From Intrasporangiaceae bacterium URHB0013 (GTDB lineage Bacteria; Actinomycetota; Actinomycetes; Actinomycetales; Dermatophilaceae), in NCBI GenBank assembly GCA_000620545.1, contig JIBA01000019.1, positions 124,001 through 188,000 of the forward strand: 64,000 nt of DNA, given 5' to 3'. The notes under the pieces are model-generated. The model was not told where the DNA came from and searched no databases. It worked only from the letters and a program-made list of their open reading frames with translations. Shown piece by piece: positions 16,966 to 58,877 of this stretch. The first letter of the stretch is position 1; the number at the start of each line of letters is the position of its first letter. Position numbers and translations under genes: made by a program.

Positions 16966-18237
16966 GTGATCCCAGAGCACCGCCCCACCGAACCCCTGCA
17001 GCGGTCCGTGAGCCCGCCCGACGCCGGTCGCCCGACCGGTCGCCCGACGGGTGCGCGCGGCTCCGTGCTGGCCCGTCTCGGGTCGACGGCGGCGGCCACC
17101 GCCCTGCTGCTCGCCGGGTGCTCGACGGCTGAGCCGAAGGCCTCGGCGTCCTCGTCGGTCGCGGCCGCGTCGTCGGCAGGCAGCACGACCGGATCGGCCT
17201 CGCCTCCGTCTGGCGTCCACGTGGCCGGGGCGCCGGCGCCGCTCGCCACGCTCGTCTCGACCCTGTACGCCGGAGGCGACCTCACGCATACGTCCTCCCC
17301 CACCGCGTCGAAGGCGCTCACGGCACGCAAGCCTGCGACCAGGCCGGTGGACGCGACCGCAAAGGTCGGGTCGTGGATGGGCACCCCTGTTGCTGTCGTC
17401 ACCGCCGGCGACGACGTGACGCTCGCCGTCGGACCGACCTGGAAGGTCGTCGGCGGCTGGTGGCCGTCTCTCGGGGTCGCGCGACCCAGCCTCGGCAGCG
17501 GGCCCCGCTGGGTGCTCGCCATCGGGTCCGACGCCCGCAAGGGACAGCCCCTCGAGCGCACCCGCGCGGACGTGCTCCAGGTCATCGGCGTCGACGGCAA
17601 GGGTGGCGGCGGCGTCATGGGCATGGCCCGCGACCTGTGGGTACCGCTCTCGACGGGTGGCAAGGGCAAGATCAACTCGGCGATGGTGCTCGGCGGGCCG
17701 CGCGCCCAGGTCAGCACCGTCAAGGCCGTGACCGGCCTGCCCCTCGAGGGCTATGTCGTGCTCGGCTTCAGTGGCTTCAAGAAGATCGTCGACGACGAGG
17801 GCGGCATCCCCATCGTCATCCCGAAGACCGTGGTCGCCTCGCACGCCAAGGACCTCGTCATCGAGGCCGGCGCCCAGACTCTGTCCGGGGCCGAGGCCCT
17901 CGCCTACGCGCGGGAGCGAAAGACCCTGCCCGACGGGGACTTCGGCCGATCACGACACCAGGGCGAGGTCATCCTCGCTGCTGCGATCAAGGCCAGGCTC
18001 GCGGGTCCGATCGCCATCCCGTCGGCCCTCACGAGCTTCAGCACGGTCGGCAAGAGCAACCTCTCGGCCGAGCAGATCCTCACCTTCACCGCAGGCCTGC
18101 ATCAGCTGAGCCCGCTCAAGGTCGGCCGTGGTGTGGCCCAGGGGGCTTTCGGGTGGGCCGGTCAGCAGTCGATCGTCGTCCTCGGCAGGCAGGCCCGCGG
18201 CCTCTTCGCCGAGTTCCGGGACGGGAACCTCTCGTGA
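16966..18237 (+). CDS. Lipoprotein-type LytR-CpsA-Psr (LCP) family protein
   Basis: A 423-residue envelope protein. LCP enzymes transfer lipid-linked glycopolymers such as teichoic acid or arabinogalactan to peptidoglycan. LCP hallmarks here are LAIGSDARKG (about residue 184), TRADVLQV, GMARDLWVPL, GKINSAM and the late ALAYARERK...GDFGRSRHQG. Most LCP proteins have an N-terminal transmembrane anchor; this one has a signal peptide ending in LLLAGC (lipobox, about residue 50) and a Ser/Ala-rich linker, then about 90 residues before the LCP core. The leaderless GTG start is supported by TACGGT; the stop overlaps argA. Confidence 0.83.
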   Translation: MIPEHRPTEPLQRSVSPPDAGRPTGRPTGARGSVLARLGSTAAATALLLAGCSTAEPKASASSSVAAASSAGSTTGSASPPSGVHVAGAPAPLATLVSTLYAGGDLTHTSSPTASKALTARKPATRPVDATAKVGSWMGTPVAVVTAGDDVTLAVGPTWKVVGGWWPSLGVARPSLGSGPRWVLAIGSDARKGQPLERTRADVLQVIGVDGKGGGGVMGMARDLWVPLSTGGKGKINSAMVLGGPRAQVSTVKAVTGLPLEGYVVLGFSGFKKIVDDEGGIPIVIPKTVVASHAKDLVIEAGAQTLSGAEALAYARERKTLPDGDFGRSRHQGEVILAAAIKARLAGPIAIPSALTSFSTVGKSNLSAEQILTFTAGLHQLSPLKVGRGVAQGAFGWAGQQSIVVLGRQARGLFAEFRDGNLS

Positions 18238-18737
18238 GCGGTGCGCCTGTCATCCGGCGCGCCCGCACCTCGGACGTGCGTGCCATCCGGGCTCTCGTGG
18301 CGCCGCTGGCCGAGCGCCGGGTGCTGGTCAGCAAGGAGGCGGTCACCTACTTCGAGAGCCTCCAGGAGTTCCGGGTCGCCGAGCTCGACGGTCGTGTCGT
18401 CGGCTGCGGCGCCCTGCATGTCATGTGGGAGGACCTCGCCGAGATCCGCACCCTGGCCGTTGCTGCCGACCAGCGCGGCACCGGTCTCGGTGGGCGGCTG
18501 CTCGAGGTCCTCGTCGAGGACGCGCGCGAGATCGGCGTCGAGCGGCTCTTCTGCCTGACCTTCGAGACGGACTTCTTCGTCCGGCACGGCTTCGAGGTCA
18601 TCGAGGGCCAGGCTGTCCCGACGGACGTCTATGCCGAGCTGCTGCGCTCCTATGACGAGGGCGTCGCGGAGTTCCTCGACCTCGAACGGGTCAAGCCCAA
18701 CACCCTCGGCAACACCCGAATGCTCCGCACCCTCTAA
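18234..18737 (+). CDS. argA: Short GNAT-type amino-acid N-acetyltransferase (ArgA-like)
   Basis: A 167-residue GNAT protein closely resembling the short mycobacterial N-acetylglutamate synthase (Rv2747 type) rather than the kinase-fused E. coli ArgA. Shared stretches include VGCGALHVMWEDLAEIRT, LFCLTFETDFFVRHGF and the C-terminal FLDLERVKPNTLGNTRML. It would make N-acetylglutamate from glutamate and acetyl-CoA, the first step of arginine synthesis. The GTG overlaps the LCP stop (GTGA). The TAA at 18735-18737 directly abuts the first unit of repeat array 1. Confidence 0.85.
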   Translation: MSGAPVIRRARTSDVRAIRALVAPLAERRVLVSKEAVTYFESLQEFRVAELDGRVVGCGALHVMWEDLAEIRTLAVAADQRGTGLGGRLLEVLVEDAREIGVERLFCLTFETDFFVRHGFEVIEGQAVPTDVYAELLRSYDEGVAEFLDLERVKPNTLGNTRMLRTL

Positions 18738-19236
18738 CCGTCGAAAGGCCAAAGTTCGCGGCCTCCTCACCGTCGAAAGGCCAAACTTCGCGGCCTCCTC
18801 ACCGTCGAAAGGCCAAAGTTCGCGGCCTCCTCACCGTCGAAAGGCCAAACTTCGCGGCGCCCTCACCGTCGAAAGGCCAAACTTCGCGGCGCCCCCACCG
18901 TCGAAAGGCCAAACTTCGCGGCGCCCCCACCGTCGAAAGGCCAAACTTCGCGGCCTCCTCACGTCAAGAGGCCAACGATCACGACCGGGGGCTCGACGAC
19001 CGGTCTGACCACGAAGTCGAACCCAAAACGTGGCCATTCGTCCGTTGGACGGCCGCGAACCATGGGCACTCGACGGCCTGGCAGCAACATACTTTGGCCA
19101 CTCGACGGGTCGCGGGCCGCAAACTTTGGCCACTCGACCGGGTCGGGGCCACAAACGTTGGCCTCTCGACGGGGGCGGGACCGCAAGCTTTGGCCACTCG
19201 ACGGGGTCGGGGCCGCAAACGTTGGCCTCTCGACGG
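18738..19236. repeat. Repeat array 1: head-to-head 32-bp tandem arrays between convergent genes
   Basis: The 515-nt gap between the argA stop and the ABC ATPase stop contains no gene. Left half: seven units starting at 18738, 18770, 18802, 18834, 18866, 18898 and 18930, each exactly 32 bp, core CCGTCGAAAGGCCAAA then TTCGCGGC, with a decayed eighth at 18962. Right half: the same unit inverted, with CTCGAC at 19069, 19101, 19133, 19165, 19197 and 19229, again exactly 32 bp apart, plus a decayed, in-phase copy at 19037. About 60 bp of spacer separates the halves. No spacers lie between units, and the 32-bp period shifts the reading frame each copy, so it is neither CRISPR nor coding. Confidence 0.97.
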
Positions 19237-19252
19237 GGGAAGGTGGGAGGGG

Positions 19253-20185
19253 TCAGCCGCGGCCGGAGGCGGCGTAGATGCGCCGGACGACGTCCTCGAT
19301 GTCCGGCTCCTTGACGGTCAGGTCGCGGACCTCGTGACGCGAGGAGACATGGGCCAGCACGGCGGCCACGGTCGTCGCCTCGGAGTCGAACGCGAACCGC
19401 TGGCGCAGCCCGTCGGACTCGCTGTCGATCAGAGTGGCTCCCGGGACGTCGACGAGGTCGGGCGTCGGTTGTGCGAGGTCGATGACGACGATGCGCTGCG
19501 CGCCGACCGTCCCGGCGAGGCCGTTGAGCGTGCCGTCGAAGGCGAGCCTGCCGTGGTCGACGACGAGGACCCGGTCGCAGAGCCGCTCGATGTCGCCCAT
19601 GTCGTGCGTCGTGAGGAGCAGGGTCGTGCCCTCCTCGCGGCGCTCCGCGACGAGGAACTCGCGCAACCGTTGCTTGGAGAGCACGTCGAGGCCGATCGTC
19701 GGCTCGTCCAGGATGAGCAGCTCCGGCGAGTGCAGCAACGCCGCGGCGAGCTCAGCCCGCATGCGCTGGCCGAGCGACAGGGACCGGACCGCCGTGCCGA
19801 GCTGGGGGCCCATCTCGAGCTGCTCGACCAGCAGGTCGGTGCGAGCACGGGTCACCTGCTCGTCCATCCGGTGGATGGCCCCGAGAATCTCGAACGAGTC
19901 GCGCAGCGGGAGGTCCCACCACAGCTGCGAGCGCTGCCCGAAGACGACCCCCACCCGGCGCGCCACCTCGACCCGCTGGCGCATCGGGTCGAACCCGCAC
20001 GTGCGGACGTGGCCCGAGGTCGGCTTGAGGATGCCGGTCAGCATCTTGATCGTCGTCGACTTGCCGGCGCCGTTGGCGCCGATGTAGCCCACCGCCTCGC
20101 CGGGCTGCACCGAGAAGGTCATCCGGTCCACGGCCCGCGTCTTCTTGAAGTCGCGCACGAGGTCGCGCGTCTCGATGATGCTCAT
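19253..20185 (-). CDS. ABC-2 type transporter ATP-binding protein
   Basis: A 310-residue ATPase of the COG4586-like group that pairs with two ABC-2 permeases. Walker A is GANGAGKSTTIKML, the ABC signature LSLGQRMRAELAAALL (LSLGQ, a common variant of LSGGQ), Walker B LLILDEPTIGLD, and the H-loop LLTTHDM. A C-terminal domain of about 80 residues follows. The ATG at 20185 overlaps the stop of the permease upstream (ATGA). The stop at 19253 lies just outside repeat array 1. Substrate unknown; the group is annotated as uncharacterised or multidrug export. Confidence 0.88.
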   Translation of the reverse strand: MSIIETRDLVRDFKKTRAVDRMTFSVQPGEAVGYIGANGAGKSTTIKMLTGILKPTSGHVRTCGFDPMRQRVEVARRVGVVFGQRSQLWWDLPLRDSFEILGAIHRMDEQVTRARTDLLVEQLEMGPQLGTAVRSLSLGQRMRAELAAALLHSPELLILDEPTIGLDVLSKQRLREFLVAERREEGTTLLLTTHDMGDIERLCDRVLVVDHGRLAFDGTLNGLAGTVGAQRIVVIDLAQPTPDLVDVPGATLIDSESDGLRQRFAFDSEATTVAAVLAHVSSRHEVRDLTVKEPDIEDVVRRIYAASGRG

Positions 20186-28548: not shown

Positions 28549-28893
28549 ATGGCTCAGCGTGTCGAAGTGGTATTGATCGACGACATCGACGGTGGAAAGG
28601 CTGCCGAGACGGTGACCTTCGCCCTTGACGGCGTCTCCTACGAGATCGATCTGTCCGACAAGAATGCCCGCAAGCTCCGCGACGACTTCGCGTCGTGGAC
28701 CGGTCATGCCCGTCGGGCCGGTTCGACCAAGTCCGCCTCGCGTCGTCGCTCGGGCGCGAACGCGGGTGGAGGCACGGCGAAGCGGAACGACCTCGGCGCG
28801 GTCCGTGAGTGGGCGCGCGAGAACGGCCACACCGTCTCGGACCGGGGCCGCATCTCGGCCGACGTGCAGGCCGCCTACGACAAGGCGCACTGA
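28549..28893 (+). CDS. lsr2: Lsr2 nucleoid-associated protein
   Basis: A 114-residue H-NS-like xenogeneic silencer of actinobacteria. The N-terminal dimerisation domain begins MAQRVEVVLIDDIDGGKA and contains TVTFALDGVSYEIDLS. The C-terminal DNA-binding domain begins around residue 80 and ends NGHTVSDRGRISADVQAAYD; the AT-hook-like RGR that inserts into the minor groove is intact. A basic, Gly/Ser-rich linker joins the two. The ATG at 28549 has GGAGA 4 nt upstream. Its promoter region is strikingly AT-rich. Confidence 0.95.
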   Translation: MAQRVEVVLIDDIDGGKAAETVTFALDGVSYEIDLSDKNARKLRDDFASWTGHARRAGSTKSASRRRSGANAGGGTAKRNDLGAVREWARENGHTVSDRGRISADVQAAYDKAH

Positions 28894-28914
28894 CCACCGG
28901 TCAACGACGCAGTC

Positions 28915-28946
28915 AGAGGGCCCGGCACGCAGGTGCCGGGCCCTCT
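28915..28946 (+). terminator. lsr2 terminator
   Basis: A perfect 14-bp stem (28915-28928 against 28933-28946) with a 4-nt GCAG loop, 21 nt past the lsr2 stop. The convergent ligD-like gene ends at 28988, so it may work in both directions. Confidence 0.9.
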
Positions 28947-28987
28947 CGCGTGCCCGGCGGCATACGCCGTCGCGTGTGCCGTCACAC

Positions 28988-29875
28988 TCAGCCGGTGATC
29001 TCGGCGGCCAGGTCGCCGTCGCGCTCCACGCGCTCGAGCACCTCGTCCGCGGTCAGCTGCACGAGCTCGCCGCCATCGGCCCCTGCCTCGATCTCGTCCC
29101 ACGACCGGGGTGCCGCGACGGTCGGGCGCTCCCGTCCACGAAGGGAGTACGGGCAGACCGTCGTCTTGGCCGCGACGTTCTGGCTCCAGTCGAGGAAGAT
29201 CTTGCCCGGCCTCAGCTCCTTGGCCATCTTCCACACGACGAGGTCCGGATGTGCCTTCGTCAGCTCCTGTGCGAGCTGTTGGACGGTGTCGCGGATCTGG
29301 TCGCTCGTGTGCGCGCCGGGCAGCACGGCGTACAGCTGGAGTCCCTTGCTGCCGCTGGTCACCGGCACCGTGTCGAGCCCGATGCGGGCGAGCCGCTCGC
29401 GCACGATGAGCGCGACGCGGGCGCACTCGAGCAGCCCCGTGCCCGGACCCGGGTCGAGGTCGATGACGAGACGGTCGGGGTTGCGCGGCTCGGCGTCGCG
29501 CCCCTCCCCCGCATAGCGCCACTGGTGCACGTGCAGCTCGAGCGAGTTGAGGTTGGCGAAGTACGTCAGCCCGGCGAGGTCGTCGACCAGGGGGAAGACC
29601 GGGTCACGGCCGGCCCGACGGATCCACGACGGCGTGCCGGCGGGAATGTTCTTCTCGAAGAACTGCATGTCACCGACCCCGTGGGGGAAGCGGATCCGCG
29701 TGACGGCACGGTCGCGCAGGTGCGGCAGGATCACCGGTGCGATGCGCGCGTAGTAGTCGATCACCTGGGCCTTCGTCGTGCCCTCCCGCGGATACATCAC
29801 CTTCTCCAGGCTCGACAGCCGCATCCGCCGCCCGTCGACCTCCACGGTCACCCTGGGCGCCTCGTAGGGCATCAC
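28988..29875 (-). CDS. LigD polymerase (primase-polymerase) domain protein, NHEJ
   Basis: A 295-residue stand-alone LigD-type PolDom that fills gaps and adds ribonucleotides at broken ends during non-homologous end joining. Typical features are YPREGTTKAQVIDYYARIAPVILPHL, FFEKNIPAGTPSWI, the metal-binding LVIDLDPGPGTG (DxD) and TSGSKGLQLYAVLP. In mycobacteria this domain is fused to nuclease and ligase domains; here it is separate and overlaps the ligase gene (ATGA at 29872-29875). A GTG/ATG doublet makes the first residue uncertain by one. Confidence 0.9.
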   Translation of the reverse strand: MMPYEAPRVTVEVDGRRMRLSSLEKVMYPREGTTKAQVIDYYARIAPVILPHLRDRAVTRIRFPHGVGDMQFFEKNIPAGTPSWIRRAGRDPVFPLVDDLAGLTYFANLNSLELHVHQWRYAGEGRDAEPRNPDRLVIDLDPGPGTGLLECARVALIVRERLARIGLDTVPVTSGSKGLQLYAVLPGAHTSDQIRDTVQQLAQELTKAHPDLVVWKMAKELRPGKIFLDWSQNVAAKTTVCPYSLRGRERPTVAAPRSWDEIEAGADGGELVQLTADEVLERVERDGDLAAEITG

Positions 29876-30819: not shown

Positions 30820-30840
30820 GGGTGCATTCTTGTTCCCATG
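30817..30840. promoter_or_regulatory. Compact divergent promoter of ligase and Ku
   Basis: The two ATGs are 18 bp apart, and each lies in an arm of the inverted repeat GCATGGG/CCCATGC. CATTCT (30825-30830) is 7 nt before the Ku ATG, and its near-complement AAGAAT (30826-30831, minus) is 6 nt before the ligase ATG, so overlapping -10 elements could give two leaderless mRNAs. Confidence 0.4.
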
Positions 30841-31842
30841 CGAGCCATCTGGAAAGGCGCCGTGTCGTTCGGCCTCGTCAATGTGCCGGTTCGACTCTTT
30901 TCGGCGACCGAGAACCACGACGTGCAGTTCCGGCAGGTCCACGAGAAGGACGGCGGCCGCATCAAGTACCAACGCGTCTGCTCGATCGACGGCGAGGAGG
31001 TGCCCTACTCCGACATCGCCAAGGGTTATGAGGCGGCCGACGGACAGATGGTCGTGCTGACCGACGAGGACCTCAAGAGCCTGCCGACACGGTCGACCAA
31101 GGAGATCTCGATCGAGAAGTTCGTGCCGTCCGAGCAGATCGACCCGCTGCTCTTCGACAAGAGCTACTACCTCGAGCCCGACAAGACCGGCCTCAAGCCC
31201 TACGTCCTGCTGCGCGACGCGCTCGAGAAGGCCGACCGGATGGCGCTCGTCACCGTGTCGGTGCGCACCCGCATGACGCTCGCGGTGCTGCGCGTGCGCG
31301 ACGGCGTCATCGTCCTCCAGACCCTGTTGTGGGCCGACGAGGTGCGGGCGCCCGAGTTCGAGTCACTCTCGGAGGAGACCCACGCGACGGCCAAGGAGCT
31401 CGCGATGGCGTCATCGCTCGTCGACTCGTTGTCGGGCGACTACGAGCCGGATGAGTTCGAGGACGACTACTCCGAGGCCGTGACGCAGCTCGTCGCGACG
31501 AAGATCGAGGGCGGCGACATCACCGAGACGCCCGAGGCCAAGGGTGAGGAGACCGAGGTCGTCGACCTGCTCGCCGCCCTGCAGCGCAGCGTCGACAAGG
31601 CCAAGGCGTCCAGGACCGGCGGCTCGTCCGACTCAGACTCGTCCGACTCCGGCTCGTCGGAGACCGAATCGTCCGGCTCGGCGGGCAAGGGCGCCACGAA
31701 GAAGTCCGCGGCCAAGAAGACCACCGCCAAGAAGTCGACCGCCGAGAGCGCGACAAAGAAGACCGCCGCGAAGAAGACGACGGCCAAGAAGTCCACCGCC
31801 AAGGGCGCCACGAAGAAGGCGGCCACCAAGAAGGCCAGCTGA
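30838..31842 (+). CDS. ku: Ku protein, NHEJ
   Basis: A 334-residue bacterial Ku that binds DNA ends as a dimer and recruits the polymerase and ligase. The N-terminus MRAIWKGAVSFGLVNVPVRL and the ring domain (YEAADGQMVVLTDEDLKSL, YYLEPDK, LLWADEVR) are canonical to about residue 250. The C-terminal 60 residues are a Ser/Asp-rich stretch followed by AKKTT/AKKST-type repeats like a histone H1 tail; such basic tails strengthen DNA binding in actinobacterial Ku. A hairpin CGGCG/CGCCG at about 31848-31861 may end the transcript. Confidence 0.95.
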   Translation: MRAIWKGAVSFGLVNVPVRLFSATENHDVQFRQVHEKDGGRIKYQRVCSIDGEEVPYSDIAKGYEAADGQMVVLTDEDLKSLPTRSTKEISIEKFVPSEQIDPLLFDKSYYLEPDKTGLKPYVLLRDALEKADRMALVTVSVRTRMTLAVLRVRDGVIVLQTLLWADEVRAPEFESLSEETHATAKELAMASSLVDSLSGDYEPDEFEDDYSEAVTQLVATKIEGGDITETPEAKGEETEVVDLLAALQRSVDKAKASRTGGSSDSDSSDSGSSETESSGSAGKGATKKSAAKKTTAKKSTAESATKKTAAKKTTAKKSTAKGATKKAATKKAS

Positions 31843-39806: not shown

Positions 39807-39827
39807 GAGGAAGCCAGCCCGAGCGAG

Positions 39828-39875
39828 CCCCGCACTGAGCCCCGCAGTGAGCCCGGCAGTGAGCCCCGAAGTGAG
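39828..39875 (+). repeat. 12-bp tandem repeat
   Basis: Four imperfect copies of a 12-bp unit (AGTGAGCCCCGC-like) fill most of the 75-nt gap before the methyltransferase gene. The last copy supplies GAGG near its start codon. Confidence 0.75.
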
Positions 39876-39881
39876 GTCGGC

Positions 39882-40580
39882 GTGAGCGACAGGTCCGAGA
39901 TCATCCCCTCCCCCAACATCTGGGAGACACCCGACGTCTACGAGGTCGAGAACCGTGGCGTCGACCGTGCCCACGTCATCGAGGATGCGATGCGCAGCGT
40001 GCTCGACTGGTCATCGCTCGACGTCGTCGACATCGGGTGCGGCACCGGCTACCACCTGCCGTACTTCGCCCGCGACGCACGCTCGGTCATCGGTGTCGAA
40101 CCACACCCACCGCTGGCTACCCTTGCAGCACAGCGTGTCTCAGGTATGCCGTCCGTCTCGGTGCGCGAGGAGGGTGCCGCTGCGATCGGCGTGCCCGACG
40201 GCTCGTTCGACGTCGCGCACGCCCGGTGGTCCTACTTCTTCGGACCGGGCTGCGAGCCGGGCCTTGCCGAGCTGGACCGCGTCATGCGCCCGGGCGGAGC
40301 GGCGTTCGTCATCGACAACGACGCGACCCGGTCGACGTTCGGTCAGTGGTTCCGTCGGGCCCTGCCGGGCTACGACCCGCGGGCCGTGGAACGCTTCTGG
40401 GAGCGGCAGGGCTGGCGGCGCGAGCGACTCGACATCCGTTGGACCTTCGACTCGCGGGCGGACTTCGAAGCGGTCGTCGCGATCGAGTTCGCTCCCGAGC
40501 ACGCCGACCTCATCCTCGCCGAGCACCCCGACGCCACGGGCGTCGACTACGCGGTCAACCTCTGGCACCGCCGCTACTGA
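39882..40580 (+). CDS. Class I SAM-dependent methyltransferase
   Basis: A 232-residue methyltransferase of the Methyltransf_11/25 type. Motif I is VVDIGCGTGYHLPY (about residues 48-61), then the acidic VIGVEPHP, and DGSFDVAHARWSYFFGPG, with LAELDRVMRPGGAAFVID as motif VI. The substrate is unknown. The GTG at 39882 follows GAGGT at 6-nt spacing. It is the last gene before repeat array 2 and is convergent with nadC. Confidence 0.87.
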   Translation: MSDRSEIIPSPNIWETPDVYEVENRGVDRAHVIEDAMRSVLDWSSLDVVDIGCGTGYHLPYFARDARSVIGVEPHPPLATLAAQRVSGMPSVSVREEGAAAIGVPDGSFDVAHARWSYFFGPGCEPGLAELDRVMRPGGAAFVIDNDATRSTFGQWFRRALPGYDPRAVERFWERQGWRRERLDIRWTFDSRADFEAVVAIEFAPEHADLILAEHPDATGVDYAVNLWHRRY

Positions 40581-40620
40581 CCCTGGGCATGCCTGCCCCC
40601 GCCCCCGCGACAGTGAAAAA

Positions 40621-41076
40621 CCGTCGAAAGGCCAATCTTCGCGGCTGTGTAACCGTCGAAAGGCCACTCCTTGCGGCTGTGCACCCGTCGAAAGGCCACT
40701 CTTTGCGGCTGTGTAACCGTCGAAAGGCCAAACTTCGCGAGTGCGAACCCGTCGAAAGGCCACTCCTGGCGACGGCGAACCCCGTAAGCACTACTTTCTG
40801 CGGCTGCGTGCCGCCAACAACGCCGAGACCGCCCCGGGACCCCTGTAGGAGCCCCCGGCTGGGAGGGTGGCCACTCGAATCGTCGAGGCCGACAAACGTT
40901 GGCCTTTCGACGGTTGCCGAGCCGCAAACGTTGGCCTCTCGACGGTTGCCGAGCCGCAAACGTTGGCCCCTCGACGGTTGCCGAGCCGCAAACGTTGGCC
41001 CCTCGACGGTTGCCGAGCCGCAAACGTTGGCCCCTCGACGGTTGCCAAGCCGCAAGGTTTGGCCTCTCGACGGTTG
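40621..41076. repeat. Repeat array 2: head-to-head 32-bp tandem arrays between convergent genes
   Basis: This 506-nt gap (40581-41086) between the methyltransferase and nadC stops has no gene. Left half: five units at 40621, 40653, 40685, 40717 and 40749, exactly 32 bp apart, core CCGTCGAAAGGCCA, with a decayed sixth near 40781. Right half: inverted units with TCGAC at 40907, 40939, 40971, 41003, 41035 and 41067, exactly 32 bp apart, and a decayed in-phase copy at 40875. The core matches array 1, but the ends of the units differ (GCGGCTGTGTAA and GCTCGGCAA types), so each array has evolved its own unit. Confidence 0.97.
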
Positions 41077-41086
41077 GAGGAGGGGG

Positions 41087-41971
41087 TCAGTCGACGAGGT
41101 CGAGGGCGATGTCGACGATGGGTGAGCTGTGCGTCAGGCCGCCGACCGAGACGAAGTCGACACCCGTCGCGGCGTGCTCGGCGACGACCTCGAGGGTCAG
41201 GCCGCCGGTGGCCTCGATCTCGACGGGTTCGCCTGCGGCGCGGAGCAGCTCGACCGTCTCGCGCAGCACGTCGACCGGCATGTTGTCGCACATGATGAAG
41301 CGCGCCCCGGCCTCGTAGGCCTCCTTCGCCTCGGCCGGCGTCGTCACCTCGACCTGCACGTCGACGTCGGGGAAGCGCTCGCGCACGAGGGCGTACGCCG
41401 CGGCCACGGAGCCCGCGGCGAGCTTGTGGTTGTCCTTGATCATTGCGACGTCGTAGAGACCCATGCGCTTGTTCGTGCCGCCGCCGCAGCGCACGGCGTA
41501 CTTCTCGAGCCAGCGCAGGCCGGGCGTCGTCTTGCGCGTGTCGAGCACCATCGCCCCGGTGCCCTCGAGGGCGTCGGCCCAGCGCCGGGTGTGGGTGGCC
41601 ACGCCCGAGAGCCGGCTCAGGATGTTGAGGATGGTGCGCTCGGCGACGAGGACGACCTGGGTGGGTCCGACCAGCCGCGCGATGACGTCGCCGCGCTCGA
41701 GGCGCGCGCCGTCGTCGTTGACGACCTCCACGGAGGGCACCTCGCCGCCGATCCGCTCCGCAACGGCCCCGAGCACGAGCCCGATGACCGGCACGCCGGC
41801 GACGACTCCCGGGGCCCGGGCGACGATCTCGGCCGTCCGGATCTGGCCGCCGGGGATCGTCGCCAGCGTCGTCACGTCGACACCGTCGGGACCGAGGTCC
41901 TCGCGCAACGCGACCGAGACGAGCTCGACCGCCCACTCGTGCGGGAACCCGCTCAGCCCGTCGCCACTCAC
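41087..41971 (-). CDS. nadC: Nicotinate-nucleotide pyrophosphorylase (carboxylating)
   Basis: Quinolinate phosphoribosyltransferase; converts quinolinate and PRPP to nicotinate mononucleotide and CO2 in de novo NAD synthesis. The 294-residue length is normal. Conserved segments are ERTILNILSRLSGVATHT, LDTRKTTPGLRWLEKYAVRCGGGTNKR broken here at motif level (TRKTTPG, GGGxxHR-like GGGTNKR), MIKDNHK and IEATGGLT with SVGGLTHS near the end. GGGTNKR has Asn where many homologues have His. The GTG overlaps the nadB stop (GTGA). Last gene of the panC-panD-nadB-nadC run. Confidence 0.95.
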   Translation of the reverse strand: MSGDGLSGFPHEWAVELVSVALREDLGPDGVDVTTLATIPGGQIRTAEIVARAPGVVAGVPVIGLVLGAVAERIGGEVPSVEVVNDDGARLERGDVIARLVGPTQVVLVAERTILNILSRLSGVATHTRRWADALEGTGAMVLDTRKTTPGLRWLEKYAVRCGGGTNKRMGLYDVAMIKDNHKLAAGSVAAAYALVRERFPDVDVQVEVTTPAEAKEAYEAGARFIMCDNMPVDVLRETVELLRAAGEPVEIEATGGLTLEVVAEHAATGVDFVSVGGLTHSSPIVDIALDLVD

Positions 41972-50927: not shown

Positions 50928-51030
50928 CCGGAGGACGCCCACGACTGCCGTGTCGTCTGCTGTCTGGCGGGGTGATCACCACACCAGGTGCCGGACCACG
51001 GCGCAGGGCACGCGCAGCCGGCGGTTTGAC

Positions 51031-51100
51031 CCACGGCGCCGCCGGCGGTTGGTCCACGGCGCCGCCGGCGGTTGGTCCACGGCGCCGCCGGCGGCGGTCA
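51031..51100. repeat. Three 23-bp tandem repeats with palindromic GGCGCCGCCGGCGG
   Basis: CCACGGCGCCGCCGGCGG recurs at 51031, 51054 and 51077 (23-bp steps) between the stops of the lipoprotein gene and the DUF3180 gene. Each copy can fold (GCCGCCGGCGGC), so the set may act as a bidirectional terminator. The gap 50928-51097 has no gene. Confidence 0.8.
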
Positions 51101-51583
51101 GGACGCGGCCGGCGGCTGGTCCTCGTCCTCGTCGTCGCGGGGGCGCAGACGGCACCAGTTCTGCACGACCATGCCGGCCACCGCGAGCAGGAGTGCCACG
51201 ACGGCGTGGAGCACGAACGGCAGGATGCGTCCACGCTGGGAGTCGACGTCGGCATCGGGCAGCAGGACGAGGGCGTTCGCGAGGTACCAGCCCACGAGCA
51301 CCGAGCCCGTGAGGGCTCCGGCCTGTCCCAGCACGAGCGTTCGGGCCGCGCGCAGCGGTGAGATGGCGAGGTTGGGCAGGCCGTCGCGGACCTTGCGCAC
51401 CTGCCAGCCGGCGATGACGAGCCCGCCGGTGAGGAACAGCATCGCGGCCGCGCCGACCCAGCCGGGCTCGGGCACGGCGTTGCCGCCGGCCGTCAGCCAG
51501 CGCAGCCCGAGCCAGGCGACCACCGTCATGGCCAGTCCAGCGAGGACGAGCGTGCTGACGCGGATGCCGGAGTGTGGTGTCAC
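51098..51583 (-). CDS. DUF3180 membrane protein
   Basis: A 161-residue protein with four transmembrane helices (near residues 10-27, 42-60, 85-103 and 117-136). DUF3180 proteins are found almost only in actinobacteria, usually right after folK, as here. The GTG at 51583 overlaps the folBK stop (GTGA) and has GGGAG upstream, so it is preferred over the ATG at 51595. The charged C-terminus (RPRDDEDEDQ) is cytoplasmic. Function unknown. Confidence 0.85.
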   Translation of the reverse strand: MTPHSGIRVSTLVLAGLAMTVVAWLGLRWLTAGGNAVPEPGWVGAAAMLFLTGGLVIAGWQVRKVRDGLPNLAISPLRAARTLVLGQAGALTGSVLVGWYLANALVLLPDADVDSQRGRILPFVLHAVVALLLAVAGMVVQNWCRLRPRDDEDEDQPPAAS

Positions 51584-56436: not shown

Positions 56437-57480
56437 TCAGGCGAAATGTGCCGTGACCGTGCGGGCGACACCGTCGACGGTGACCCGCCCACCGTAGGGC
56501 AGCACCCACTGCGGCGACGTGTGTCCGAAGTCGACGTCGAGCACGACGACGAGGTCGGCGTTGTACTCACCGACGGCCTTCAGGACCTGCTCACGGTGCT
56601 CCGCACGCAGGGCCGAGGCCTCCGCCTCGGTGCGCGGGTGCTCCCGTGAGGACGCGAAGGGCCGGGCCCAGAGCAGGGCGGACACGGCCTCGAGCACGCC
56701 ACGCTCGCCGAGGTTGCGCAGGCCGCGGTAGGTCTCCTCCGGCGGGGGCATCTCCTCGCTCGGCTCGAGCACGAGGACGCAGCCGGCATACGCCTCGGTC
56801 GGGAGGACGAAGCGGCCGACCTCGAGGGTCCAGCGCAGGATCTCGAGGTTGCCGCCCCACGTCGGCCCGTTGACGACGCGCTGTGGCCCGGACCAGGTCC
56901 ACGGCTCTGCGGGAACGTCGGGCGGCGCTGCGGTGAGCGCCGTGGGGTCGTCCCAGCGCAGGCCCATGTCGCGCGTGCGCGCGACCGGCGCGAGGGCGAC
57001 GTCCCCGCCGAAGAGCGCGCCCCGGAGCGAGGTCAGGTGCTCCGCGTCGGGCTCGGGTCCGGGGCCCAGGTGCACCTGGGTCGAGCCGCCGTGCACGCTC
57101 TCGACGCCGTGGAACCACAGCCAGTTGAGCAGGTTCGTGTTGTCGCTGTAGCCGACGAAGGGCTTGGGGTCGGCGCGGACGACGTCGGGGTCGAGGTGGC
57201 GCAGCACGGTGACCTGGTCGTCGCCGCCGATCGTAGCCATGACGGCGCGGATCTCCGGGTCGGCGAAGGCGGCCATGAGGTCCGCGGCGCGCTCCTGCGG
57301 CGACGACACGACCCGGGTCGTGGGGTACTCGACCGGCACGACCCCGAGCGCGTCGCGCAGGCGTCGCATGGCCTGCTCGTGGATCTGCGGGAAGAACGCC
57401 GGAGCGGCCCACGCCGGCGAGAGGACGGCGACCTTGTCGCCCGGTCGGCACCGGCGTGGAGCCACGATCTCGTGCGTCAT
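56437..57480 (-). CDS. S66 family peptidase (LD-carboxypeptidase/MccF-like)
   Basis: A 347-residue serine peptidase. The nucleophile is Ser112 in VGYSDNTNLL; the catalytic Glu is in TWGGNLEIL and the His in DFGHTSPQW, completing the Ser-Glu-His triad. The family includes LdcA, which trims peptidoglycan tetrapeptides, and MccF, which inactivates microcin C; WTWSGPQRVVNGPTWGGN resembles the MccF-like branch. It sits between ftsH and hpt, which are neighbours in many actinobacteria, and its upstream region is repeat array 3. Confidence 0.88.
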   Translation of the reverse strand: MTHEIVAPRRCRPGDKVAVLSPAWAAPAFFPQIHEQAMRRLRDALGVVPVEYPTTRVVSSPQERAADLMAAFADPEIRAVMATIGGDDQVTVLRHLDPDVVRADPKPFVGYSDNTNLLNWLWFHGVESVHGGSTQVHLGPGPEPDAEHLTSLRGALFGGDVALAPVARTRDMGLRWDDPTALTAAPPDVPAEPWTWSGPQRVVNGPTWGGNLEILRWTLEVGRFVLPTEAYAGCVLVLEPSEEMPPPEETYRGLRNLGERGVLEAVSALLWARPFASSREHPRTEAEASALRAEHREQVLKAVGEYNADLVVVLDVDFGHTSPQWVLPYGGRVTVDGVARTVTAHFA

Positions 57481-57512: not shown

Positions 57513-58030
57513 CCCGTCGAGTGCCCACTTACCGACGCACGGCTCCCGTCGAGTGCCCACTTGCAGACGCGCGGCTCCCGTCGAGTGCCCACTTCCCGAC
57601 GCAAGGCTCCCTGTCCAGTGCCCAGTTCCACACGCACGCGCGGCTCCCGTCGAGTGCCCAGTTCTCGCCGCACGGCTCCCCGTCGAGTGCCCAGTTCTCG
57701 CCGCACGGCTTCCTGTCGAGTGCCCAGTTCCGCACGCCTGCGGTGTCGGAAGTGGGCACTCGACGTCAAAGGGGGACCTCGCGTACGCCGGCGGTGTCGG
57801 AAAGTGGGCACTCGACGTAAAAGGGGGCACCTCGCGTACGCCCGCGGCGTTGGAAAGTGGGCACTCGACGTCGAAGGGGGCACCTCGCGTACGTCTGCGG
57901 CGTCGGAATGTGGGCACTCGACGTCGAAGGGCGGCACCTCGCGTACGCCGGCGGCGTCGGGAAGTGGGCACTCGACGTCAAAGGGGACACCTCGCGTGCG
58001 CCCGCGGCGTCGGGAAGTGGGCACTCGACG
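57513..58030. repeat. Repeat array 3: head-to-head tandem arrays between hpt-side and ftsH-side genes
   Basis: The 572-nt gap (57481-58052) has no gene. Left half: seven units starting near 57513, 57545, 57577, 57609, 57646, 57679 and 57712 (32-37 bp apart), core CGTCGAGTGCCCACTT. Right half: inverted AAGTGGGCACTCGACG with CTCGAC at 57759, 57811, 57864, 57917, 57971 and 58024, about 53 bp apart, the extra 21 bp being a GGGCACCTCGCGTACGCC-like stretch. The core is related to arrays 1 and 2. Here both flanking genes run leftward, so the array follows DUF1028 and precedes the S66 gene. Confidence 0.96.
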
Positions 58031-58052
58031 GGAGGGTGGCGCGGGGGTGGGG

Positions 58053-58877
58053 TCAGGCGGTGGCGGCGCGCAGGGCCTCGAGGACCCGGCGGTCGATGCC
58101 GTCCGGGCTGAGGCGGGCCTCGTAGTTCGCGTTGCCGGCCCAGTCGGCCAGGGCAGTGGCCACGTCGGCGTCCGTGAAACCGGCGACGGCCAGCCGCTCG
58201 CGCACCTCGTCGGCGAGCTCGCCCTCGAGCGGCGCGACGTCCTCGGGCCTGCCGAAGTACATCTCCCAGTCCGAGAGCAGGCGCCCGAGCTCGCTCACGG
58301 GGTCGGCGTGGTCGTCGACGCGGAGGTCGGCCAGCACGCCGCAGGCGTCGTAGCCGGAACCCGGCTCGACGGCATACATCGCGGCGCTCTGGCGCCCTCG
58401 CGAGTCGCCACCGGCGTCGTCACCGGCAACGAGCGCGGCGAGCAGCCGACGCGCCAGGGGCTGCCCGGCACTGTCGTGCCAGGCCCGCTCCATCGCCTCG
58501 ACGACCTCGGGCCCGGTGAGGATGTTGCCCTGGATGGCGTATGCCGTGTCGCCGTCGTCGCGCGCGACGCCGCCGGCCCAGGCGTTGCACTCCGAGCCCG
58601 TGAACGTGGAGGCGGAGCCGAGTCCGACGACCCCGACCTGACGGGTCTCGCGACCCTCGTCGAGCGCCGTGGCCGCGGCGAGGGCCTCGCCGGCCGGCTC
58701 ACCCGCGGCAAGGCGGCCCAACAGCTCGTCGAGGTAGGCGACGCGCGCGAAGGACTGCGTCGCGACCGCGCCCACCCCGAGGCGAGCAGCCGGGACGACC
58801 GCACCGACGGCGAGGAACTTGCTCGCGACGGCGATGCCGTGGGCGTCGCCCTGGCGCGCGACGATGGAGAAGGTCAC
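58053..58877 (-). CDS. DUF1028 domain protein (Ntn-hydrolase-like)
   Basis: A 274-residue protein. The DUF1028 core (residues 2-205) starts TFSIVARQ and has ATQSFARVAYLDELLGRLAAG, NAWAGGVARDDG, YAIQGNILTGPEVVEAM and DSRGRQSAAMYAVEPGSGYD. Many members have Thr after the first Met as a potential Ntn nucleophile; here residue 2 is Thr too. The C-terminal segment RLAVAGFTDADVATALADWAGNANYEAR resembles a peptidoglycan-binding-like or DUF1028-associated domain. GTG 58877 has GGGAG. It lies 13 nt after hpt. Confidence 0.87.
   Translation of the reverse strand: MTFSIVARQGDAHGIAVASKFLAVGAVVPAARLGVGAVATQSFARVAYLDELLGRLAAGEPAGEALAAATALDEGRETRQVGVVGLGSASTFTGSECNAWAGGVARDDGDTAYAIQGNILTGPEVVEAMERAWHDSAGQPLARRLLAALVAGDDAGGDSRGRQSAAMYAVEPGSGYDACGVLADLRVDDHADPVSELGRLLSDWEMYFGRPEDVAPLEGELADEVRERLAVAGFTDADVATALADWAGNANYEARLSPDGIDRRVLEALRAATA

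Follow-up and report, generated by a model that had tools for sequence, protein, structure and literature searches.

The repeat array at positions 18738-19236 is one of some forty in the genome of Intrasporangiaceae bacterium URHB0013, built from inverted repeat arms that sit where genes end, and the type of arm mostly goes with a matching nuclease-like gene in the same genome, which suggests an undescribed partnership between an enzyme and a repeat. The window analysed here is a 64,000-nucleotide stretch of contig JIBA01000019.1 (GCA_000620545.1, positions 124,001 to 188,000, forward strand). The first-pass annotation, made from the letters of the window alone, had described two opposed sets of an exact 32-bp unit that fill a convergent gene junction without spacers, and this observation is confirmed. 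Its interpretation, a non-coding and previously undescribed design whose transcripts would form a very long hairpin, is supported only in part, as set out below.

Opposed half-arrays at a convergent gene junction

Seven forward units with exact cores start at 18738, 18770 and so on to 18930, in steps of 32 bp, and are followed by a decayed copy at about 18962, whereas six reverse units begin at 19236, 19204, 19172, 19140, 19108 and 19076, with a decayed copy at 19044. TRF finds a period of 32 on both sides, and the 16-bp core with up to 2 mismatches gives 19 hits in the window against 0 in 100 shuffles. By hexamer-based gene calling, the array fills the 515-bp gap between two convergent genes. 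The gene named argA in the first-pass annotation is a GNAT acetyltransferase by Pfam, and the opposing gene encodes an ABC ATPase. Two more arrays lie in the window, and the features are as follows:

18234-18737 (+), GNAT acetyltransferase gene, the stop codon of which abuts the array
18738-18961 (+), left half of array 1, seven 32-bp units with the class A arm CCGTCGAAAGGCCAAA pointing inward, the decayed eighth copy reaching to about 18975
18976-19029, centre between the half-arrays, loop of the predicted long hairpin
19030-19236 (-), right half of array 1, six 32-bp units plus a decayed copy, same arm on the other strand
19253-20185 (-), ABC transporter ATPase gene ending 16 bp from the array
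40621-40780 (+), left half of array 2, five class A units in 32-bp steps, 40 bp after the stop of a methyltransferase gene, 39882-40580 (+)
40899-41073 (-), right half of array 2, six class A units, 13 bp from the stop of a quinolinate phosphoribosyltransferase gene, 41087-41971 (-)
57514-57727 (+), left half of array 3, six class B arms (GTCGAGTGCCCA...), upstream of the reverse-strand gene 56437-57480
57752-58031 (-), right half of array 3, six class B arms at a step of about 53 bp, 21 bp from the stop of gene 58053-58877 (-)

Six of the eight convergent gaps in the window measure 33-170 bp, whereas the other one that holds an array (40581-41086) measures 506 bp. The convergent gap at 28893-28988 contains two strong ordinary hairpins unlike the arm family; the genome also has simple stem-loops at gene ends, and the convergent junction 50927/51098 carries a GC-rich tandem repeat (51012-51122, 23 bp, 4.9 copies) without the CGTCGA arm. 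In addition, a 12-bp and 24-bp tandem repeat, GAGCCCCGCAGT, is present at 39825-39887 in and around the short gap upstream of gene 39882-40580, and Lys/Ala/Thr-rich repeats, by eye a histone-like tail, are found at 31686-31837 inside the predicted gene 30838-31842.

RNA folding of array 1 pairs each unit with its mirrored partner (160 of 178 predicted pairs, -277.5 kcal/mol), whereas other arrays fold less cleanly. Thus, the exact period, the opposed halves, the location at a gene junction, the absence of spacers and a predicted long hairpin were all correctly noted in the first pass. By contrast, a stand-alone design without relatives is not supported, because the array is the amplified form of a dispersed hairpin and resembles REP/REPIN repeats; the nuclease genes that sit between the same arms could not be seen from the window. 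A CRISPR array is ruled out by the lack of unique spacers, since the short variable part differs only by point changes between most neighbours. Rfam returned nothing at gathering scores in four loci, and a single match in 18600-19400 lies below gathering and outside the array. ARAGORN found no tRNA in the seven loci scanned, which did not include fetched locus L035, where a tRNA 3' end is seen by eye.

A dispersed family of hairpin arms at gene ends

The 16-bp core with up to 2 mismatches occurs 75+87 times in the 4.57-Mb genome, against 0+1 for the reversed pattern. Absence from all other loci had been named beforehand as grounds for rejecting the observation; instead, such arrays are found in many places of this genome and in independently assembled relatives. 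Together with the window, 32 further regions, chosen partly from the first 100 of these places, give 41 clusters of two or more cores, of which 23 are convergent, 16 lie between co-directed genes (one, L041, lacks a called left gene, and another, L035, faces the apparent tRNA end) and 2 are divergent. This contrasts with 8 convergent and 9 divergent among the 64 neighbouring gene pairs of the window (P 3e-6). The first units lie 0-60 bp from a stop codon in most clusters. The logo of 285 units is conserved over about 25 of 32 positions, and the 32-bp step occurs 171 times in the window and the fetched loci, although steps of 22, 31, 42 and 53 bp are also observed. Some arrays are instead head-to-tail hairpins with a step of about 53 bp (L036, L039, L048), further class C arrays exist outside the 41 clusters, and a third format is seen in L297 (1527-2238), where class C-like arms alternate in orientation, with 19 copies by pattern matching.

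A scan of named genomes with a two-arm pattern gave 96 stretches, of which the 80 listed fall mainly in Terrabacter, Humibacillus, Intrasporangium and other Dermatophilaceae, with one in Terracoccus, one in Nostocoides and single stretches in other groups, among them Glaciihabitans, Nocardioides, Propionibacteriaceae, Chloroflexi, Deltaproteobacteria and Halobacteria assemblies. The same core, orientation rule and gene-end position in dozens of loci, the same repeats in independently assembled genomes, and an arm class that follows the nuclease lineage (see below) make neutral minisatellite slippage or an assembly artefact very unlikely. Nevertheless, unit numbers differ between sides and species, and units within a half-array are more alike than units of different halves (0.69 against 0.53 at positions 15-25), as slippage would predict.

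The minimal element is a 44-61 bp hairpin with a conserved outer arm, CGTCGARNGGCCA, and a variable, compensated inner stem, the arms of which are multiplied in the array. Under a strict pattern, 12 of 186 genomes of the family have this palindromic form, with 49 hairpins by the counts. In the 44 distinct hairpins found in fetched loci, the outer arm was largely fixed by the search pattern, but the free inner positions 15-22 match between arms in 25-42 of 44, against means of 11.7-34.8 in shuffles (at most 3 of 2000 shuffles as good per position), with three or four bases used at each position. These shuffles ignore relatedness. Of the 44, 25 are convergent, 17 co-directed and 2 divergent, and 42 have at least one gene ending towards them. 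Within the GGCC class (23 arrays), left and right arms of one array match no better than arms of different arrays (0.660 against 0.663 at positions 15-25), and locus-specific pairing is therefore not seen in arrays.

The junction of array 1 can be compared across eight Terrabacter genomes, including that studied here (G000), the placement of which in Terrabacter is inferred from its same-genus relatives. The others are G001, G003 (Terracoccus sp. 273MFTsu3.1, assigned to the same genus), G004 (T. aerolatus), G005 (T. tumescens), G006 (Terrabacter sp. Root181), G007 (Ter38) and G008 (Root85), whereas a ninth genome, G002, gave no orthologue. Between the orthologous GNAT and ABC genes, the gap is 17 bp in G004, 20 in G001, 78 in G006, 95 in G003, 109 in G007, 179 in G008, 433 in G005 and 515 in G000. 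G006 and G007 have two or three left arms at a 32-bp step, and G005 has about four copies of a roughly 107-bp unit with CGAGTGGCC arms. Thus, the array looks like an expansion of a smaller arm-bearing junction.

One possibility is that the hairpins and their multiplied arms are plain bidirectional terminators that offer several chances to form a stem, and that the nuclease genes merely live in such junctions. The gene-end location, the compensated stem, the long predicted stem and the presence of both arms even where only one gene ends (L040, L044, L045, L047) are in agreement with this. However, no T-run beyond a weak TT follows the hairpins in 61 downstream flanks, no terminator-like site was found in 18500-19500, and several arrays have units on one side only (for example L034, L053, L054). 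Moreover, a terminator needs no fixed arm sequence, no genome-wide arm class and no link to a nuclease lineage, and we consider this explanation alone unlikely.

Nuclease-like genes between inverted arms

Gaps of about 1.2 kb between some half-arrays, which we first took for a transposon, hold genes, in several loci the nuclease and in others unrelated ones. In L055, L057, L063, L064 and L066, the gene encodes a protein of about 330 aa with an AbiEi-like N-terminal part (PADLOC E 2e-5 to 3e-6 in the three proteins scanned, Pfam AbiEi models being only marginal) and a C-terminal part with weak matches to MTES_1575 (11 of 22 members) and DUF559 (5 of 22), two of these proteins scoring below the Pfam cut-off in a separate scan. 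Residues D233, W236, E244, G247 and H251 are invariant in the 22 sequences aligned, of 35 loci. The nuclease part also shows a weak profile match (E 0.23, not significant alone) and a shared D..E..H pattern with Vsr-like (EDxHD) homing endonucleases such as the 3r3p mobile intron protein, from which the present proteins differ by fusion to an AbiEi-like part, by not being seen in an intron, by being kept at orthologous junctions and by the many dispersed arm copies without a gene. An AlphaFold model from five sequences is uninformative (mean pLDDT 32.7). In 15 pairs the gene has a dN/dS of 0.08-0.35, indicating purifying selection, although dS is mostly near or above 1.

As DUF559 alone (PF04480) found only one copy in the genome, itself a remote homologue, we used a profile of the genes found inside arrays. 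A search of nine Terrabacter genomes gave 40 hits, 12 of them close (E <= 3e-99) and located at four junctions, named by eye from their neighbours: A (greA side, arms CGTCGARAGGCCA), B (ABC transporter, GTCGAGTGCCCACTTC), C (LacI family, CGTCGAGTGGTCACTCCCG) and D (membrane protein, GTCGAGTG-GCC or -AGCGC). A blind test for inverted 11-mers containing TCGANNG in the 900-bp flanks was positive in 11 of 12 close Terrabacter homologues and in 14 of 23 loci of other genera (four with cut flanks; L281, L284 and L286 weak), but in 0 of 18 remote homologues (those of the 28 remote hits that came with loci) and in 4 of 78 control genes, all beside arrays and one of them the nuclease itself. Thus, 10 of 35 close loci fail this test, although one of those missed, L236, has arms on both sides by a mismatch-tolerant test. 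Bracketing is not unique to the nuclease, since arms also surround unrelated genes in L046, L062 and L288-L290; in L288 (1493-2847), L289 (1548-3592) and L290, class D arms bracket other genes (by eye a sigma-factor-like two-gene operon and a xerC-like recombinase). Three of the four junctions are orthologous across genera while the arms differ between orthologues, whereas for D only Terrabacter loci were found.

Four arm classes track four nuclease lineages across the eight Terrabacter genomes, with arms beside the nuclease itself included in the counts. Class A arms (CCGTCGARNGGCCAA) number 120 in G000, 18 in G005, 9 in G008, 4 in G006, 3 in G007 and 0 in G001, G003 and G004. Class B arms number 26 in G000, 28 in G005 and 0 in the other six, class C arms 47 in G000, 60 in G001 and 0-1 elsewhere, and class D arms 181 in G003, 86 in G008, 55 in G005, 24 in G006, 6 in G000, 5 in G007, 2 in G001 and 0 in G004. 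Reversed-pattern controls gave at most 2. In every class, each genome with the matching nuclease has more arms than each without (12 present cells, 3-181; 20 absent cells, 0-24; Mann-Whitney P 3e-6 with cells taken as independent). G002 (74% complete), with 3 A arms and no close nuclease hit, was left out of these cells. On a tree of the GNAT locus (about 2 kb), nuclease presence is patchy, and five sister contrasts (A and D for G003/G007, B and C for G000/G006, C for G001/G004) all go the predicted way, the A contrast by 3 to 0 only. For class B, we predicted arms in G000, G005 and G088 (75 found) among 14 genomes counted; G087 (Humibacillus xanthopallidus), with 16, was a miss explained by a B-type nuclease between B arms found there afterwards, and the other 10 genomes have 0. 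Arrays 1 and 2 of the window are class A and array 3 is class B, whereas the class A and B nucleases of this genome lie on another contig (G000:C14:228163-229149 and 110612-111628, respectively).

There are exceptions to this tracking. G006 has 24 D arms but no D nuclease was found, and G004 has 3 GGCCA hairpins but no close nuclease. The D nuclease of G003 is flanked by GTGGCC arms, while its dispersed arms are AGCGC, and nuclease genes at the C junction in genomes G024 and G137 go with other arms, the C pattern counting 7 and 0 there. The sub-class, defined by the base after GGCCA, agrees with the nuclease flank in G000, G006 and G007, but is mixed in G005 and opposite in the four G008 loci looked at. 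In addition, the profile was seeded with array-bracketed genes, and the hairpin set and class counts come from related genomes, such that shuffles and P values overstate independence. The family-wide overlap (11 of 12 hairpin genomes among 17 with the nuclease, of 186) is confounded with kinship and with this seeding, and we therefore lean on the within-genus contrasts.

A REPIN-like reading and related repeat systems

We interpret the array as a locally amplified member of a dispersed, REPIN-like family of inverted arms, served in trans by a Vsr-like nuclease instead of a RAYT transposase. The sequences themselves establish the hairpin at gene 3' ends, with its conserved outer arm (CGTCGA plus a class-specific part) and variable, compensated inner stem; the head-to-tail multiplication of arms in opposed halves pointing inward, mostly in 32-bp steps; the protein of about 330 aa, AbiEi-like at the N end and weakly Vsr/DUF559-like at the C end, encoded between inverted arms at conserved junctions; and that the arm class dispersed in a Terrabacter genome mostly follows the nuclease lineages it encodes, with fewer or no arms where a lineage is absent. 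The mechanism, by contrast, is inferred from sequence alone, as are binding, cutting, spread of the arms and termination: the AbiEi-like part would bind the arm, the Vsr-like part would nick or cut arm pairs or their hairpins, and repair from another copy would spread and homogenise arms between junctions, while slippage or unequal repair would multiply them within one. At 3' ends, the transcribed arm pair probably works as a bidirectional, U-poor terminator or insulator, which would explain where copies survive. We hold this reading with moderate confidence only, mainly because of the lack of locus-specific pairing in arrays, the absence of a U-tract, the mixed sub-classes and the different local class in G003.

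Alternatively, the AbiEi-like protein may be mainly a regulator that binds arms in tandem and acts as roadblock, operator sink or nucleoid organiser, the nuclease activity being secondary or lost. The predominant 32-bp step, which is about three helical turns, the GTGNNCAC palindrome seen by eye in several arm classes, and the binding of inverted repeats by AbiEi antitoxins (PMC7319586) speak for this. However, other steps occur, the compensated but unconserved inner stem is not needed for binding duplex DNA, and the D..W..E..G..H pattern is invariant, which leaves this alternative doubtful.

The arrangement is similar, but distinct, to REPIN-RAYT systems (PMC3116915, PMC8049555). Shared are inverted doublets with a variable spacer forming hairpins and dispersed outside genes, a different repeat group beside each cognate enzyme gene, vertical inheritance of that gene, more repeats in genomes that keep the enzyme, and the occurrence of tandem clusters. 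Here, each class lies beside and tracks the Vsr-like nuclease in place of a RAYT, with the exceptions given above. Indeed, no Y1 transposase (PF01797) was found in G000, while 5 of 14 control genomes gave matches, and opposed head-to-tail arrays filling gene junctions are the common form here. CGTC-tagged REPs (PMC3733652) also carry CGTC at the outer ends of inverted pairs and lie mostly at convergent or unidirectional junctions, as observed here for head-to-head pairs, but have an 8-9 bp stem, a 4-5 base loop and an unpaired CGTC, and the word Actinobacteria does not occur in that text. In our hairpins CGTC is paired, and by eye class A arms have no such stem and class B and C arms only short GTGNNCAC-type palindromes. 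The uptake-sequence terminators of Neisseria and Pasteurellaceae (PMC1852404) likewise place a conserved short word in inverted pairs, as hairpins, at tail-to-tail junctions, but that word is about 9-11 nt with generally 1,000 or more copies, whereas here a longer arm is present in 162 copies (16-bp core, up to 2 mismatches), mostly in clusters in the loci examined. Literature searches in PMC, which covers few subscription papers, showed no description of these arrays or of such a nuclease-repeat link.

A more far-reaching view, which we regard as about as likely as not, is that this is a new kind of enzyme-maintained repeat, in which homing-type Vsr-like nucleases fused to AbiEi-like DNA-binding domains keep up, in trans, genome-wide populations of class-specific inverted arms at gene 3' ends. 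In this view, each nuclease lineage would have its own arm code, loss of the nuclease would lead to loss of its arms, and the arrays would be the amplified form of this population. CGTC-tagged REPs were described as apparently lacking a dedicated transposase (PMC3733652), whereas here a nuclease lineage and its repeat class mostly come and go together across species, which makes the question of what copies short bacterial repeats testable. Such a partnership would also give a function to a common, uncharacterised AbiEi-plus-nuclease gene, matched by the profile at E <= 1e-40 in 96 of 186 genomes of the family, and would explain why one gene junction swells from 17 to 515 bp among related species.
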